From the NCBI GenBank assembly GCA_026645815.1, contig JAPKMR010000017.1, positions 1 to 64,000 of the forward strand: a stretch of DNA of 64,000 nucleotides, given 5' to 3'. Positions 9,655 to 16,802 of this stretch are shown here, piece after piece. Positions within the stretch are counted from its first letter, which is position 1; every line of letters starts with the position of its first letter. The notes beneath the pieces are model-generated. The model saw only the letters and a list, made by a program, of their open reading frames with translations. It did no database searches and was not told the DNA's origin. Source of the DNA: Anaerolineae bacterium (GTDB lineage: Bacteria; Chloroflexota; Anaerolineae; B4-G1; SLSP01). The position numbers and the translations under genes are program-made.

Positions 9655-10644
9655 ATGCCGTTTTCAGACTCTTACGCCCGCCCCATCGAGTACCTGCGCG
9701 TTTCCGTCACTGACCGCTGCAACCTACGCTGTCGCTACTGCATGCCCGAAGAGGGCATCCAACCGATAGCCCACGATACCGTGCTCCGCTATGAAGAAAT
9801 CGTGCGCATCGTACGCGTAGCAGTCTCAATGGGTCTCATCCATGTGCGCCTTACCGGCGGCGAACCTCTGGTTCGCCGGGGCATCGTGGACCTGGTGGCG
9901 CAACTCGCCGCTATCCCCGGTCTGGAAGACCTTTCCATGACCACCAACGGCATGTGGCTAGAGCGTTATGCGGGCGAATTGGCACAGGCGGGGTTAGGGC
10001 GTATCAATCTAAGTCTGGATACCCTGCGATCAGAGCGCTTTCACGACATCACCCGCCTCGGGAATTTGGAGCAGGTGTTACGCGGGCGTGAAGCTGCGCT
10101 CAAAGCCGGATTGCGTCCGGTCAAGGTCAATACCGTCGTGGTGCGCGGCATGAACGATGATGAAATTGTGGATTTGGCAAGGCTAACGCTGTTGCCGGAT
10201 TGGCACGTGCGTTTCATTGAGATCATGCCGTTGGGAACCGGCGAGCACTGGACGGAGAATGGCGTCGTGACAGTTGCGGAAATCCGTGCGCGCGTGGAAG
10301 CGGGGTTGGGGTCACTGGTCTCTGTGCCCAACGAGACCGGCGTCGGACCGGCACGTTATTATCAATTACCAGGTGCGGCAGGAACCCTGGGCTTCATCAG
10401 CCCCGTGAGTGAGCACTTCTGCCATGCCTGCAATCGCCTTCGACTCACCTCAGATGGGCACTTGCTGCCTTGCTTGATGTCCAATCATTCGATTGATCTA
10501 CGCACGCCGCTGCGCGCCGGCGCCAGCGACGCGGAATTGCAAATCATATTCGAGAGAGCGATCCTGGCAAAACCTAGAGGTCACCATCTGGCAGAGCACC
10601 AACTTCCGGAATGCTTGCTGCCCATGTCAACCATAGGCGGGTGA
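9655..10644 (+). CDS. moaA: GTP 3',8-cyclase MoaA
   Basis: A 329-residue radical SAM enzyme that rearranges GTP to (8S)-3',8-cyclo-7,8-dihydroguanosine 5'-triphosphate, the first step of molybdenum cofactor synthesis. The radical SAM cluster motif is C22-x3-C26-x2-C29, followed by LTGGEPL and MTTNGMWL. The second, GTP-binding cluster uses FCHACNRLRLTSDG and a third Cys in LLPCL (about residues 255, 258 and 272). The protein ends in STIGG, and the C-terminal Gly-Gly is required for activity in characterised MoaA. moaC follows after 57 bases. Confidence 0.97.
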   Translation: MPFSDSYARPIEYLRVSVTDRCNLRCRYCMPEEGIQPIAHDTVLRYEEIVRIVRVAVSMGLIHVRLTGGEPLVRRGIVDLVAQLAAIPGLEDLSMTTNGMWLERYAGELAQAGLGRINLSLDTLRSERFHDITRLGNLEQVLRGREAALKAGLRPVKVNTVVVRGMNDDEIVDLARLTLLPDWHVRFIEIMPLGTGEHWTENGVVTVAEIRARVEAGLGSLVSVPNETGVGPARYYQLPGAAGTLGFISPVSEHFCHACNRLRLTSDGHLLPCLMSNHSIDLRTPLRAGASDAELQIIFERAILAKPRGHHLAEHQLPECLLPMSTIGG

Positions 10645-10701
10645 AAGGGCATAACACACGCGGACCAGCACAGCCTGAGCCGCAATCGAAAAGGATGCTG
10701 C

Positions 10702-11193
10702 ATGTCTGAGCCACAACTGACACACATTGATGAACACGGCGCCGCCCGGATGGTGGATGTGAGCGCAAAACAACCCACGCAGCGGGAAGCACTTGCCGCA
10801 GGTGAAGTGCGGATGCAGCCCACAACGCTCGCGTTGATTCAGGCAGGCGACGTTGCCAAGGGGGATGTACTTGCGGTCGCACGGGTCGCCGGCATCATGG
10901 CGACCAAACGCACACCGGAGTTGATTCCGCTGTGCCATCCCCTACCCATCACCAGCGTCACCGTAGATTTCGAATTCGATACGGAACGCTCCGTCATCGC
11001 CATCACTTCCTGCGTGCGGTGTACGGGCATCACCGGCGTGGAAATGGAGGCGCTCACTGCGGTGAGCGTCGCAGCACTGACAATCTATGATATGGCGAAG
11101 GCTGTGGACCGCAGTATGGCCATTCAAAACATCCGCCTGCTCGAAAAACACGGCGGGAAGAGCGGGGATTGGGTACGTGGAGATAATCTCTGA
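10702..11193 (+). CDS. moaC: Cyclic pyranopterin monophosphate synthase MoaC
   Basis: A 163-residue MoaC that converts the MoaA product to cyclic pyranopterin monophosphate. Conserved blocks are [60 protein letters not shown] and the C-terminal [12 protein letters not shown]. Length and motifs are typical. It lies between moaA and a MOSC gene in one operon. No moaD, moaE or moeA is present in the window. Confidence 0.97.
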
Positions 11194-11247
11194 AAGCTGA
11201 GGCGTGATGTATCCCGCGCATTCACTTCTGTATTTGGAGGTCAAAGG

Positions 11248-11703
11248 TTGAAAGGCAAAGTGGTCGCTGTTTGTGTCAGCGACAAAAAAGGTGTAGTCAA
11301 GAAAAATGTTGGCAGCGGGGTTCTGCGCGTGAATTGGGGTCTGGAAGGGGACGCCCATGCCGGGGACTGGCACCGCCAGGTTTCATTACTGGCTTGGGAA
11401 TCCATCGAAACCATGCGCGCAAAAGGGCTCAAGGTAAAAGAGGGGAGTTTCGCCGAGAATATCACGACCGAGGGATTAGAACTGCACACGTTAGCCGTGG
11501 GCACACAGATGAGGTTGGGTACGGCGCTGGTCGAAGTCACACAGATTGGCAAGGTCTGTCACAGTCACTGCGCTATCTACTATGCTGCGGGAGATTGTGT
11601 CATGCCACGAGAGGGCATTTTCGTCAAAGTGCTAGAGCCGGGTGAAGTTCACACCGGCGATGTTGTAGAAGCATATCATCACCCCACAGGAGAAGCCCTA
11701 TGA
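11248..11703 (+). CDS. MOSC domain protein
   Basis: A 151-residue single MOSC (Moco sulfurase C-terminal) domain. Typical features are WGLEGDAHAGDWHRQVSLL, GSFAENITTEGL, GTALVEVTQIGKVCHSHCAIYYAAGDC (in part) and the closing GIFVKVLEPGEVHTGDVV. The conserved Cys lies in the CHSHC segment. Stand-alone MOSC proteins are thought to carry or process sulfur or molybdenum cofactor. The position after moaA-moaC fits a cofactor role, but its exact reaction is unknown. Start is TTG 11248, after TTTGGAGG at a 7-base spacing. It overlaps the next gene by 4 bases. Confidence 0.9.
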   Translation: MKGKVVAVCVSDKKGVVKKNVGSGVLRVNWGLEGDAHAGDWHRQVSLLAWESIETMRAKGLKVKEGSFAENITTEGLELHTLAVGTQMRLGTALVEVTQIGKVCHSHCAIYYAAGDCVMPREGIFVKVLEPGEVHTGDVVEAYHHPTGEAL

Positions 11704-12826: not shown

Positions 12827-14125
12827 ATGAAGTTTACCGACTGGCTGCAACAATTAATCTCCCGCATCCGTCCAAAAGAACCGGTGAGCATTCCACCCGG
12901 CATGACCCACTACCTGAGAGAAACCGAGACCGGCATCACACGCTTCCATCTCCGCGTCGAGCGTGATGGCAGCGGCTTGTTGGTCACCAACGCCACAGCC
13001 TTAGCGCGGCTTTCACCCTCTGGCGTCATCATCGCCAAAGCGCTGCTGGAAGGACGATCTGAGGTTGAAGTCCTTAGCACCCTCAAGGCGACATTTCGCG
13101 GCGCTGCGCCAGAGACCATGGCCAACGATATCGCCAGTATCAACCAGCTCCTGCAACAGCTCACCGCTCCGGGCGATGCCTATCCGGTCTTCAACCTCGA
13201 TGATGCAGCGCTCGCTACCGATGCAGCAGAACTGATCGCCCCATTGCAGGCGGCACTGCCCCTGGCGTCCCCGGACACGCTACGGCCTTTGTTAGAACGC
13301 CTCTGGGAGGTGGGCATTCCACACGTGATTTTCTTCGCCCCGAAAACCCCCAATGCCACAGACCTGGTGCGAGCTGTGGAACGCGCCGAAGACCTCGGTA
13401 TGATCGCAGGGGTGCGCGCCCGCGCCTCCGACCTGCTGCAGGAAGGCTTGCTCAACGACCTGATGGTCGCAGGGCTGGATCACGTCACGTTCCCCTATGC
13501 GGCGCTCGATGCGGACCTACACGACGCCTTGTTCGGCGCGGGCGATCACCAGGCAGCTGATACGGTATTGGCATGGCTGGAAGAAAACCAGCTCTGTGCC
13601 AACATCGAAATTCCGCTAGTCGAGACTACCCTGCCAGGACTCGAAACCATGATTCATAGTCTGCTAGACCGCGGCGCCGACAACTTCTCCTTTGTAACCT
13701 ACGTCACCAAGGACCCGGCGCTCGCAGGGAAGCACCACGGCGCTCTGGATGCTGATGCGATGCCACAAATCGCTGCCATCGTCGAGGAAGGCGCCCACGA
13801 AGTGCAGGCGCGTTTCCTCTGGGAACCTCCGGTGGAACGTGACCCTGGGCAAACGCTTGCCGAACAGTTGCAGCAAGGACCGCGCTGCGCCGGCGACGTC
13901 GCCATCCGTGTGGAGAGCGATGGGCGGGTGATTCCGCCACGAGGTCCCTATCAGAGCGCCGGCAATTTGCTACAAGACAGTTGGGATGTCATCTGGAACC
14001 ATGAGGCTTTCCGGCGTTATCGCGAACGCGTCGAGGCGCTCACCCGTTGTGAGATTTGTCCCGGACTCGTTATCTGCGCCGCAGATTGCCCGCGGGAACG
14101 GACGGGATGGGCACAAAAACCGTGA
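12827..14125 (+). CDS. PqqD-SPASM protein lacking the radical-SAM cysteines (pseudo-radical-SAM)
   Basis: A 432-residue protein with three parts. Residues about 25-100 resemble PqqD, the small winged-helix recognition domain that binds RiPP precursor peptides. Residues about 110-330 follow the strand-helix pattern of a radical SAM/SPASM barrel (LLERLWEVGIPHVIFF, AEDLGMIAGVRARASDLL, LMVAGLDHVTFPY). However, the segment where CNLxCxxC should occur reads FNLDDAALATDAAEL with no Cys at all. The C-terminal SPASM part keeps CAGDVAIRVESDGRVIPP, GNLLQDSWDVIW and Cys near 408, 411, 417 and 421. The start at ATG 12827 follows AAGGAGGAGG. It is immediately upstream of the Cys-tailed protein. It cannot make a SAM radical as written, so I infer a recognition, scaffold or iron-sulfur role. 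Confidence 0.75.
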   Translation: MKFTDWLQQLISRIRPKEPVSIPPGMTHYLRETETGITRFHLRVERDGSGLLVTNATALARLSPSGVIIAKALLEGRSEVEVLSTLKATFRGAAPETMANDIASINQLLQQLTAPGDAYPVFNLDDAALATDAAELIAPLQAALPLASPDTLRPLLERLWEVGIPHVIFFAPKTPNATDLVRAVERAEDLGMIAGVRARASDLLQEGLLNDLMVAGLDHVTFPYAALDADLHDALFGAGDHQAADTVLAWLEENQLCANIEIPLVETTLPGLETMIHSLLDRGADNFSFVTYVTKDPALAGKHHGALDADAMPQIAAIVEEGAHEVQARFLWEPPVERDPGQTLAEQLQQGPRCAGDVAIRVESDGRVIPPRGPYQSAGNLLQDSWDVIWNHEAFRRYRERVEALTRCEICPGLVICAADCPRERTGWAQKP

Positions 14126-14168
14126 AACTCCCCTCTACGGAACAACGACTACATTTAGGGAGGTGGAA

Positions 14169-16058
14169 ATGAAACGCAATTATCGGATTCTCTATGGTCT
14201 CGTGTTGGTCATGCTGCTAGCGCTGCTGCTAGGGATGCGCGAACCCGCCGTGGCACAGAGCTATCGCTTCGAGGTCCCCGAACTGCGCATGCAGGTCTAC
14301 GTGCAGCCCGATGCATCTGTCAAGATCGAATACGACATCACCTTCAAGAACCTGGGCGCGACGATTGAGGTCATTGATATCGGTACGCCGCACAAGAACT
14401 ACAATATCGGCAACATGAGCGCCTCGATGAACGGCGTGGGCTTGAACGATATTCGAAAATCCACGTATATTGATACCGGGGTCGAAATCCATCTGGGCAG
14501 TCAAGCCATTCCGATGGGAGGCGCCAGCACCTTACACTTCGAGTTCACCATGCCGGACATGGTCTATCAAGATACGACGCGTAAAGACTACGCCTCACTC
14601 CAAATCACGCCGACGTGGTTCGATAGCAGCTCGGTAAGTGGCTCAACGGCAATCTGGGTCGCCATCCACATGCCCGAAGGGGTATCGGCAGACGATATGC
14701 TGTACCAAAAGGTGGAGTTCACGCAGAAAGCGCTCTTTCAGGGGCGGGCGGTCGCCGTTTGGAACTGGGAAGAAGGTCGCGCCACACAGGAGTACCTGGT
14801 GGGGGTGTCCTTCCCTCAAGTGGGCATGGATCGGGTCATCACGATGACCCTCATAGATTTGATGGTCAAGTGGATGGAGGACAATCCCAACACGCGCATG
14901 ATCATGGGCTTGATTCAAGCGCTGCTCTTTGGCGTGCTGTTCTTCCGCTTTACCGGTGGGACCGGATGCGCGCTCTTCGGCATGTTGATGGTGGGCCTGG
15001 GGGTACTGATCATCATCAGCCCGCTCGCACAACTCGTCGCCCTGCCGCTGCTCGTGCTGCTGGTCATTATCAACGAGTGGCAGCTGAGCCGGCGCAAGAA
15101 GACATACCTGCCCCCTATCGCGCAAGTCGAAGGCGGCGGCATCAAGCGCGGGTTGACGGCGCCCGAAGCTGCCACGCTGCTTGAGATGCCGCTCAACAAA
15201 ATCCTCACCCTCGTCATCTTCGGTTTACTCGCGAAAGGTATTCTGCAACAAGTCGAAGATGACCCGCTCAAGGTAGAAGTCGCCGAACCCTTCCGCACGC
15301 TCGCTAACCCCAACCTCAAGACGACAAAGGCCCGACTGGAAGCCCGCCGTCAGGCAGCTCAAGATTTGAAGACCATCATCCACAAATACGAGGATGGATT
15401 CCTGCAGCTGTTGGAGAAACATCCGGGTAAAGCCGTCAAAGATATTGATTTCGCCCCGGCAATGCAGATTCTCATTACTGACACTGCCGAGAAGATGAAG
15501 GGCTTCGACCTTTCAGATACCAAAGAATATTATCAGCGCATCATGGAACGCGCCTGGCAGCAAGCCCAAACTATCGGCGAGATTCCACAGCGCGAGGAAT
15601 ATCTCGATAAGTATCTGCCCTGGGTGATGATGAATGACAACTATCCAACCGTGCTGACCACAGGCGGCTACAGCTATTGGCCCCGCTGGATTCGGCACTC
15701 TCGCCCCATCAGCACTGGCGGCGGCGGAATGCAAGCGCCTATTCCGAGCGGCAGCGGTAGGCCTGTGGCAGGAGGACGCACAACCCTGGGTGATGTGGGG
15801 TCGTCCTTCGCCGGTTGGGCGCAAGCCACCGCCGGTGGGCTGGCAGGCGCCATCATGCCGGGGTCGCTCAAAGTCCCGGGCGTCAAAGGCGGGGTCGTTG
15901 ACCTGAGCGGTGTGGATAAGGTCACCGGCGATGTCTTCGAAGCCCTGTCCAAGAGCTCCTCCGGCGGCGGTGGTGGCGGCGGCGGAGGAGGGCGTAGTTG
16001 CGCCTGCGCCTGCGCGGGGTGTGCCTGCGCCTGTGCCTGCGCGGGCGGTGGCAGATAG
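14169..16058 (+). CDS. Membrane protein with glycine run and (Cys-Ala)n C-terminal tail
   Basis: A 629-residue protein. It has an N-terminal signal or anchor helix (about 5-25, ending AVAQS), then an extracytoplasmic beta-rich domain of about 240 residues. Two to three membrane helices follow (about 300-375: LIQALLFGVLFFRF, then GMLMVGLGVLIIISPLAQL and LVLLVIINEW). Next comes a domain with LTAPEAATLLEMPLNKILTLVIFGLLAKGIL, resembling the winged-helix-like part of DUF2207 proteins. The end is low-complexity: ten Gly, RS, then seven Cys alternating with Ala in two blocks (three and four Cys, separated by Gly), closing GGGR. The start at ATG 14169 has AGGTGGAA upstream. The tail is discussed as a possible modification substrate of the neighbour. 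Confidence 0.75.
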   Translation: MKRNYRILYGLVLVMLLALLLGMREPAVAQSYRFEVPELRMQVYVQPDASVKIEYDITFKNLGATIEVIDIGTPHKNYNIGNMSASMNGVGLNDIRKSTYIDTGVEIHLGSQAIPMGGASTLHFEFTMPDMVYQDTTRKDYASLQITPTWFDSSSVSGSTAIWVAIHMPEGVSADDMLYQKVEFTQKALFQGRAVAVWNWEEGRATQEYLVGVSFPQVGMDRVITMTLIDLMVKWMEDNPNTRMIMGLIQALLFGVLFFRFTGGTGCALFGMLMVGLGVLIIISPLAQLVALPLLVLLVIINEWQLSRRKKTYLPPIAQVEGGGIKRGLTAPEAATLLEMPLNKILTLVIFGLLAKGILQQVEDDPLKVEVAEPFRTLANPNLKTTKARLEARRQAAQDLKTIIHKYEDGFLQLLEKHPGKAVKDIDFAPAMQILITDTAEKMKGFDLSDTKEYYQRIMERAWQQAQTIGEIPQREEYLDKYLPWVMMNDNYPTVLTTGGYSYWPRWIRHSRPISTGGGGMQAPIPSGSGRPVAGGRTTLGDVGSSFAGWAQATAGGLAGAIMPGSLKVPGVKGGVVDLSGVDKVTGDVFEALSKSSSGGGGGGGGGGRSCACACAGCACACACAGGGR

Positions 16059-16064
16059 CGAGAC

Positions 16065-16802
16065 ATGCACGACTCGGCTGCACTGCCGCTACCGGAACAA
16101 CTCGCGTTGCAAGCCCAATGGCTGGCCCCAGCGCGCTCACGGATGTTACGTGAGCGCGGTATCGCGCGCCGGCAGTGCGTGTTGGACCTGGGAGCTGCCT
16201 ATGGCACAGTCACAGCAGAACTGGTGCGCCGCGCCGGAGGCAGGGTCATCGCGCTGGATCGAGAGTTCACGGCGCTCATGCATCCGCAAGGGACGTTTGC
16301 GGGCGCTCTGCGCGCTGGCGGGGATGCGCGAGCCTTACCGTTTGCCACGGCAAGCTTCGATCTTGTCTTGAGCCAGTGTACCTTGCTCTGGACTACACCT
16401 CTCGAAAGCACCATCCAAGAAGTAACGCGGGTATTGCAACCGGGCGGCGCACTCCTGGCGCTCGAGCCGGACTACGACGGGCTGATGGAAGATCCCCCCA
16501 GCATTGAAACGCGCACGTTATGGCTGGCGGCGCTATCCCGCGCCGGCGCCAATCCAACGGTGGGACGCCGGTTGCCAGGTCTGCTCGCAGCGCAAGGGTT
16601 CCAGGTGCGTGTGGCGCTCTTCGATAGCCTGGTCCCCCCTGCTTCGGAGCGTTTTGGGTTCTTGCGCGGCTTGCCCCTTATGCCAGAGGAACGTGAACGG
16701 CTATCGCGGGTGGAGCGCCAGGCGCAGGCTCTCGAAGGACCCTGGGCGCAGGTAGCCCATCTGCCCTTTTTTCTGATCACTGCGATTAAACCCAGACTGT
16801 AA
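16065..16802 (+). CDS. Class I SAM-dependent methyltransferase
   Basis: A 245-residue methyltransferase of the Methyltransf_11 type. Motif I is VLDLGAAYGTVT (about 40-51). The acidic residue after strand 2 is in RVIALDREF, motif II is FDLVLSQCTLLWT, and post-motif VLQPGGALLALEPDYDG follows. The start codon is only 7 bases after the stop of the Cys-tailed gene, so the two are co-transcribed and probably work together. The substrate is unknown; a peptide, a lipid or a cofactor are all possible. Ordinary length, no odd features. Confidence 0.85.
   Translation: MHDSAALPLPEQLALQAQWLAPARSRMLRERGIARRQCVLDLGAAYGTVTAELVRRAGGRVIALDREFTALMHPQGTFAGALRAGGDARALPFATASFDLVLSQCTLLWTTPLESTIQEVTRVLQPGGALLALEPDYDGLMEDPPSIETRTLWLAALSRAGANPTVGRRLPGLLAAQGFQVRVALFDSLVPPASERFGFLRGLPLMPEERERLSRVERQAQALEGPWAQVAHLPFFLITAIKPRL

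Follow-up and report, generated by a model that had tools for sequence, protein, structure and literature searches.

A conserved Cys-Ala-tailed membrane protein linked to radical-SAM/SPASM proteins, and a likely maturation system for its tail, in Chloroflexota, other bacteria and Asgard archaea

Radical S-adenosylmethionine (SAM) enzymes that carry a PqqD-like and a SPASM domain are known to install cysteine thioethers, AlbA and SkfB in peptides and QhpD in a protein subunit (PMC5682303), and radical-SAM chemistry on repeats is known from TvgB, which modifies TVGG repeats (PMC9062424). MNIO enzymes are paired with TIGR04222 membrane proteins, for which modification while membrane-bound has been proposed (PMC12452194). 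Here we analyse a locus in a 64,000-nucleotide stretch of an Anaerolineae bacterium (Chloroflexota; B4-G1; SLSP01), positions 1 to 64,000 of the forward strand of contig JAPKMR010000017.1 (assembly GCA_026645815.1), which we call the window. Three genes follow one another there on the plus strand: P, a pseudo-radical-SAM/SPASM protein of 432 aa (12827..14125); T, a membrane protein of 629 aa with a Cys-Ala tail (14169..16058); and M, a class I SAM-dependent methyltransferase (16065..16802). We consider it likely that P, T and M are parts of a conserved protein-maturation system in which B, a true radical-SAM enzyme, modifies the tail of T and P helps. The best reading is a non-secreted maturation of that tail, akin to that of ribosomally synthesized and post-translationally modified peptides (RiPPs).

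The nearest conceptual relative is the pairing of MNIO enzymes with TIGR04222 proteins. Both systems have a large membrane protein with a disordered, Gly/Cys-rich C-terminal tail, a dedicated (here candidate) Cys-modifying enzyme and a partner protein. There, however, the enzyme is an MNIO and the variable tail is predicted to be periplasmic, whereas here a radical-SAM/SPASM enzyme and a pseudo-enzyme accompany a near-invariant tail predicted to be cytosolic, and T gave no TIGR04222 match in an NCBIfam scan. QhpD is also a radical-SAM enzyme that forms Cys thioethers in a target protein that is retained (PMC5682303), but its target is a quinohemoprotein amine dehydrogenase subunit, linked Cys to Asp/Glu, with no Cys-Ala repeats and no pseudo-enzyme. 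SuiB, SkfB, AlbA and PqqE have the same domain order or fold, and B keeps the clusters; their substrates, in contrast, are short peptides that are cleaved or exported, or become a cofactor. None of the four is known to us to work with a dead paralogue as a constant partner. The conserved TIGR04347 family likewise consists of SPASM proteins that resemble radical-SAM enzymes and bear the name pseudo-SAM, but it is a haloarchaeal lineage distinct from that of P, which scores 24.8 bits against it, far below the cut-off of 525; we know of no gene context common to the two. In the ACGX and His-Xaa-Ser (Hxs) systems, too, a repeat-bearing target is encoded with one or more SPASM radical-SAM proteins (NCBIfam; Haft and Basu). 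The repeats differ from those of T, and the models fit B poorly (61 bits against the ACGX model, cut-off 400). ACGX and Hxs targets are, to our knowledge, not DUF2207-like.

The C-terminus of T reads GGGGGGGGGGRS-CACACA-G-CACACACA-GGGR, that is, (CA)3-G-(CA)4-GGGR. It includes a ten-glycine linker (15963..15992 +), and the tail proper, CACACA-G-CACACACA-GGGR, occupies 15999..16055 + with the stop codon immediately after it. A sequence-only reading of the window had correctly described ten Gly followed by seven Cys-Ala pairs; it lacked the single Gly that splits the repeats 3+4 and the closing GGGR. The last 19 residues of T are nearly invariant from Chloroflexota through Asgard archaea, and five length variants occur, composed of (CA)2-5, a single G, (CA)3 or (CA)4, GGGR and a stop. 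Among T proteins fetched by homology, 29 of 34 end in the motif or a length variant, which is 29 of 29 complete ones (of the five excluded, three are cut by contig ends, one is masked in the tail and one has a different Cys tail). Relatives found by pattern add approximately 100 with the motif or a close variant at the end. The scan behind these covered 84,980 species genomes and gave at least 118 stretches, mostly from Chloroflexota, all counts being lower bounds. Its pattern fixed the core CACAGCACA without demanding the flanking (CA) units or the GGGR-stop; thus, the unbiased evidence for the tail is the 29 of 29 together with those flanking units and the GGGR-stop. Other bacterial phyla among the matches listed are Armatimonadota, Planctomycetota, Fermentibacterota, Aminicenantes, Zixibacteria, Acidobacteriota, Coatesbacteria and Hydrogenedentes, and the Asgard carriers listed are Hodarchaeota, Heimdallarchaeota, Lokiarchaeota and Sigynarchaeota. 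Cultured bacteria among the carriers include Ornatilinea apprima, Bellilinea caldifistulae, Levilinea saccharolytica and Leptolinea.

For the commonest tail variant, all 64 of 64 copies differ in their DNA and every synonymous codon is used, which rules out a DNA microsatellite. Such freedom of the codons under a string of 17-21 residues that is itself kept nearly letter for letter speaks for a specific chemistry. Brief hits to the pattern, for instance in Thiothrix, Streptomyces and Nocardia, were discarded as chance, having no GGGR-stop end and no linked radical-SAM gene in view; the loci left out on this ground are L107, L113, L119, L120, L126, L135, L166, L168 and L179.

Linkage of T to the PqqD/SPASM proteins is conserved, as the sequence-only reading had expected of a neighbourhood survey of Cys-Ala tails. 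A dedicated radical-SAM enzyme accompanies T in nearly every case and, in many lineages, so does a catalytically dead copy of it. Separate searches with P and with T across 48 genomes of the order returned largely the same genomes and contigs, and one genome listed as 100% complete (G039) has none of the set. Across 161 Chloroflexota genomes sampled phylum-wide, the tail occurs in 10, and these are exactly the genomes with B (at E<1e-190) and with the T body (at E<1e-150); two independent sets of 10 would coincide with a chance of ~1 in 10^15, a figure that ignores shared ancestry and would otherwise be less extreme. Among the 32 loci with 2.5 kb or more on each side of T, 31 have B or one of the two pseudo-enzymes (P or its counterpart P2, below) on the strand of T; Z, a small membrane protein, is present in 20 of the 32, and M in 19. 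Such a gene is within 300 bp in 98 of the 108 T genes that have one in their locus. The tail subtype also matches the pseudo-enzyme subtype: G(CA)3GGGR tails occur with P2 (42/42 loci) and G(CA)4GGGR tails with P (22/22), three further apparent P2 proteins in this count seeming to be MoaA. We take this match as an argument for action of the pseudo-enzyme on the tail, or together with it. Linkage and tail constraint together place a ribosomal candidate substrate with a repeat region beside a modifying enzyme that bears a RiPP recognition element (RRE), as in RiPP systems.

B, the presumed catalyst, is a true PqqD/radical-SAM/SPASM enzyme (in sister genera CNNACxHCYNE; SPASM CWDCPDLxMCGGGC). In 20 diverse B proteins the CxxxCxxC, the GGE and seven Cys of the SPASM region are invariant, and the B of this genome matches Pfam Radical_SAM (E 9e-23) and has the features of a radical-SAM/SPASM enzyme; the PqqD-like domain is sub-threshold by Pfam. 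The pseudo-enzymes are of two kinds, P (24 proteins) and P2 (44 proteins). The CxxxCxxC is absent from P and from all relatives checked (24 P and 44 P2 proteins); P keeps a SPASM CX2CX5CX3C in 22 of 24, and P2 has no cysteine motif left in any of the 44.

P of the window is, as first read, a SPASM protein with a PqqD-like domain and no CxxxCxxC. Its PqqD/RRE-like peptide-recognition domain (12899..13165 +) is seen in a sub-threshold Pfam match (E=0.0065, residues 60-110), a conserved RFHLRVERDGSGLL block and modelled beta strands and helices. Aligned with P2 and B, the expected CxxxCxxC site reads LIAPLQAALPLA (13232..13267 +). SPASM scores 23.1 bits, above the Pfam cut-off of 21.5, and the radical-SAM barrel leaves only a trace in Pfam (E=0.11). 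The AlphaFold2 model has the RRE-radical-SAM-SPASM arrangement, with SuiB as its nearest structure (E 5.5e-13), then SkfB and PqqE; barrel fold and SPASM domain are thus present in P by fold match to SuiB and by Pfam. The claim that the SPASM cysteines are kept holds in part: the second group is the only one fully kept (CEICPGLVICAADC, CX2CX5CX3C; 14048..14089 +), and the first retains one Cys, the Cys of GX4C being Pro (GRVIPP, against GDVLPC in true enzymes). In a tree of P, P2 and B, made by a quick method with approximate support values, P is a single clade (support 100) spanning Chloroflexota, Planctomycetota and Armatimonadota; P2 forms one group on an unsupported branch, and true B proteins make up the remainder. 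The ratio of nonsynonymous to synonymous substitutions (dN/dS) of P within the genus lies at 0.10-0.12 in the majority of pairs, the closest pair having 0.20, and no P homologue with an intact cluster motif was found among the relatives checked. P is an old clade under purifying selection and not a decayed gene.

T itself is, by profile alignment, a remote DUF2207 relative across its whole architecture (HHalign probability 98.1, E 8e-14, 349 columns), divergent enough that it lies below all Pfam thresholds and gives no DUF2207 match at E<=1. Like DUF2207 proteins (PF09972/PF20990), it would have a beta domain, membrane helices, a winged-helix part and a Gly-rich tail, but the ordinary DUF2207 tails seen are Gly- or Gly/Ala-rich and have no Cys (for example, the copy L260 in the same genome). 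In the AlphaFold2 model, a signal-like helix precedes an extracytoplasmic beta domain (residues 34-216; 14268..14816 +; predicted local distance difference test score ~97). Model and sequence then place three transmembrane helices (residues 240-262, 267-283 and 285-312; 14886..15104 +), ending near RRKK, and a predicted cytosolic winged-helix-like element (GLTAPEAATLLEMPL...; 15159..15281 +) follows, modelled as helix-helix-strand-strand and aligning to the C-terminal part of DUF2207. The C-terminal end is disordered in the model. The tail is predicted to lie on the cytosolic side, since RRKK ends the third helix and the positive-inside rule applies; radical-SAM enzymes work in the cytosol. 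A PDB sequence search with T gave no significant match, and an M1-peptidase/ribophorin-type fold for the beta domain was discarded at a PDB fold match of TM-score ~0.2.

The cassette comprises Z, T, B, P or P2, and M, and two gene orders, Z-T-B-P2-M and Z-B-P-T-(T)-M, are met repeatedly in different phyla. Sister genera have Z-B-P-T-T-M in a single run with B intact; in the genus of the window the set is divided between a contig with P-T-M and a second (G000:C111) with Z-B. The external radical-SAM enzyme that the sequence-only reading had postulated therefore exists in the same genome, and it adjoins P-T in sister genera. The adjacent methyltransferase, also suggested there as a participant, belongs to the cassette by recurrent gene order. 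M begins 6 bp past the T stop, matches Pfam Methyltransf_11 (E=1.8e-14) and resembles small-molecule methyltransferases. Both P and T have a purine-rich, ribosome-binding-like stretch upstream.

Z is a membrane protein of ~110 aa with a zinc-ribbon motif (for example, L083 5990-6331 +, and L091 7426-7794) and a near-invariant C-terminus, CPYCGxxYQxxEEPKW or EAPKW; it reaches no curated family cut-off. Some cassettes encode an extra protein directly before P (L068 8465-9274 +, L074 5057-5767 +, L077 8279-9049 +), and the L068 copy, the sole one scanned, weakly matches PF02965, the activation domain of B12-dependent methionine synthase. Upstream of the cassette in the window (9655-11703) lie moaA, moaC and a MOSC-domain gene, which concern molybdenum cofactor and which we take as unrelated neighbours.

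Reduced and related forms also occur. In Hungatella hathewayi and one relative, a shortened T sits directly downstream of a B-family enzyme (L289 3042-4109 - and 4022-5563 - in Hungatella hathewayi; L292 2867-3874 +). This T has the beta domain, a membrane helix, a Gly linker and a Cys-Ala tail, followed by AGCS(Q/R)KDFY and further residues, and is without the winged-helix part; one copy has (CA)6 with the central Gly missing. No pseudo-enzyme, M or Z match was found in the 12-kb Hungatella stretch. These loci point to tail plus B as the core, to which P may be a lineage-specific addition. Elsewhere, a B-family gene is followed by a shortened T of membrane and winged-helix parts only, with no tail (L128 2062-5191 +, L140 2783-5433 +, L199 353-2981 +), and P2 genes lie nearby on the opposite strand; perhaps this is an adaptor form of T. 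A second related system is found in the same genome as the window (G000:C66; L084 5317-7098 - and 3867-5285 -) and in L105, L106 and L276. There, a T-like membrane protein ends in CHSACHSAC...VHDACHSAC repeats beside its own radical-SAM/SPASM enzyme (CQNRCFFCYAS). No pseudo-enzyme was seen there, and for some members there are weak matches to TIGR04222 or DUF2207_C.

We propose that B, encoded in this genome on contig C111, recognizes T through its PqqD-like domain and alters the tail by radical chemistry. P would be a catalytically dead paralogue that lost the SAM-cleaving cluster while keeping the PqqD domain and, mostly, the CX2CX5CX3C; its most likely role is that of a helper, either presenting the tail or determining the register in which it is modified. 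A methyl group is probably added by M, to the tail itself or to something made from it. Clustering of stretches of 2-19 kb gave no peptidase or exporter among the recurrent neighbour families; thus, the modified tail probably remains on the membrane protein, much as QhpD matures an enzyme subunit, with no release of a peptide.

Several observations weigh against this proposal. All evidence for modification of the tail is comparative, and B lies on a different contig from P-T-M in a fragmented assembly (227 contigs, 6% contamination). Several lineages that have T and B (Fermentibacterota, Asgard) showed neither P nor P2, and a pseudo-enzyme may thus not be required everywhere. Two Asgard loci (L137 2794-4842 +, L186 2316-4709 +) have a tailed T and Z with no B in the ~3 kb downstream, though their genomes may encode one at another place. 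Conversely, one genome without a T tail or B has an orphan P2 with a weak M match (L290, G140:C35, 1845-3752 -), possibly a cassette remnant. Models of NirJ, PqqE and AhbD fit B as well as those of thioether formers do. Finally, a thiol-rich CxCxC tail could simply bind metal.

That last thought can be extended to an alternative in which the tail is a metal- or iron-sulfur-binding module, B and P handle that metal or cluster by delivery, loading or sensing, and the radical-SAM enzyme acts on another target or is itself a client. Seven alternating Cys are a plausible set of soft-metal ligands, P retains CX2CX5CX3C yet cannot cleave SAM, and Z bears a zinc-ribbon motif. We nevertheless think it unlikely: the ligands of both catalytic and auxiliary clusters are invariant in B, as in an active enzyme; the pairing of tail and pseudo-enzyme subtypes better fits the matching of enzyme to substrate; and Ala is as invariant as Cys, whereas pure metal sites usually allow spacer changes. 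Less probable still is a tail that serves only as a recognition tag, bound by P and B for recruitment to the membrane, with the chemistry falling on a lipid, a cofactor or another part of T. Conservation of P without its catalytic cluster would suit a binder, and the likeness of M to small-molecule enzymes would suit such a target, but six to eight near-identical repeats suit multi-site modification more than docking, and TvgB provides a precedent for radical-SAM chemistry on repeats. The idea of P as a redundant radical-SAM copy, or one in decay, near T by accident, can be rejected as very improbable although its catalytic motif and most of its first SPASM cluster are gone, given its dN/dS of ~0.1, its membership of one old clade in three phyla, its constant operon place beside T and the separate pseudo-clade P2 that accompanies the other tail subtype.

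If the tail is indeed modified, thioethers between Cys sulfur and Ala carbons would be the likeliest chemistry, one to which, by analogy, we give somewhat less than an even chance. We favour it on two grounds. Cys thioethers are a product of SPASM enzymes with this architecture, and in a hairpin folded at the lone Gly, that residue would shift the register so that every Cys faces an Ala. A sactipeptide-type link from Cys to an alpha-carbon is compatible with the Cys/Ala alternation, as far as the residue pattern goes. The equal match of B to NirJ, PqqE and AhbD leaves the chemistry unfixed by sequence. We tentatively put forward, as a rather doubtful but specific picture, that B and its dead paralogue install nested Cys-Ala thioethers, which would zip the cytosolic tail of a membrane protein into a hairpin round the lone Gly; the result would be a permanent module for structure or sensing, shared by several bacterial phyla and Asgard archaea.

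The system looks undescribed. We see it as a probable RiPP-like maturation by radical SAM, in which the membrane substrate is kept and a dead paralogue is specifically assigned to the task. A literature search that reached only a minority of subscription papers and preprints found no description of CACACA tails, of radical-SAM tails in Chloroflexota or of AGCSxKDFY. T, B, P and Z all stay below the cut-offs of specific curated families in Pfam and NCBIfam, and annotation pipelines miss the system for want of such models.

A near-invariant string of 17-21 residues, encoded by freely varying codons and shared by bacterial phyla and Asgard archaea, is rare. The one-to-one match between pseudo-enzyme and tail subtypes offers a test of what dead radical-SAM paralogues do. 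More broadly, the tail of T and B, with or without P, together with M, lets one ask whether radical-SAM enzymes permanently modify membrane proteins.

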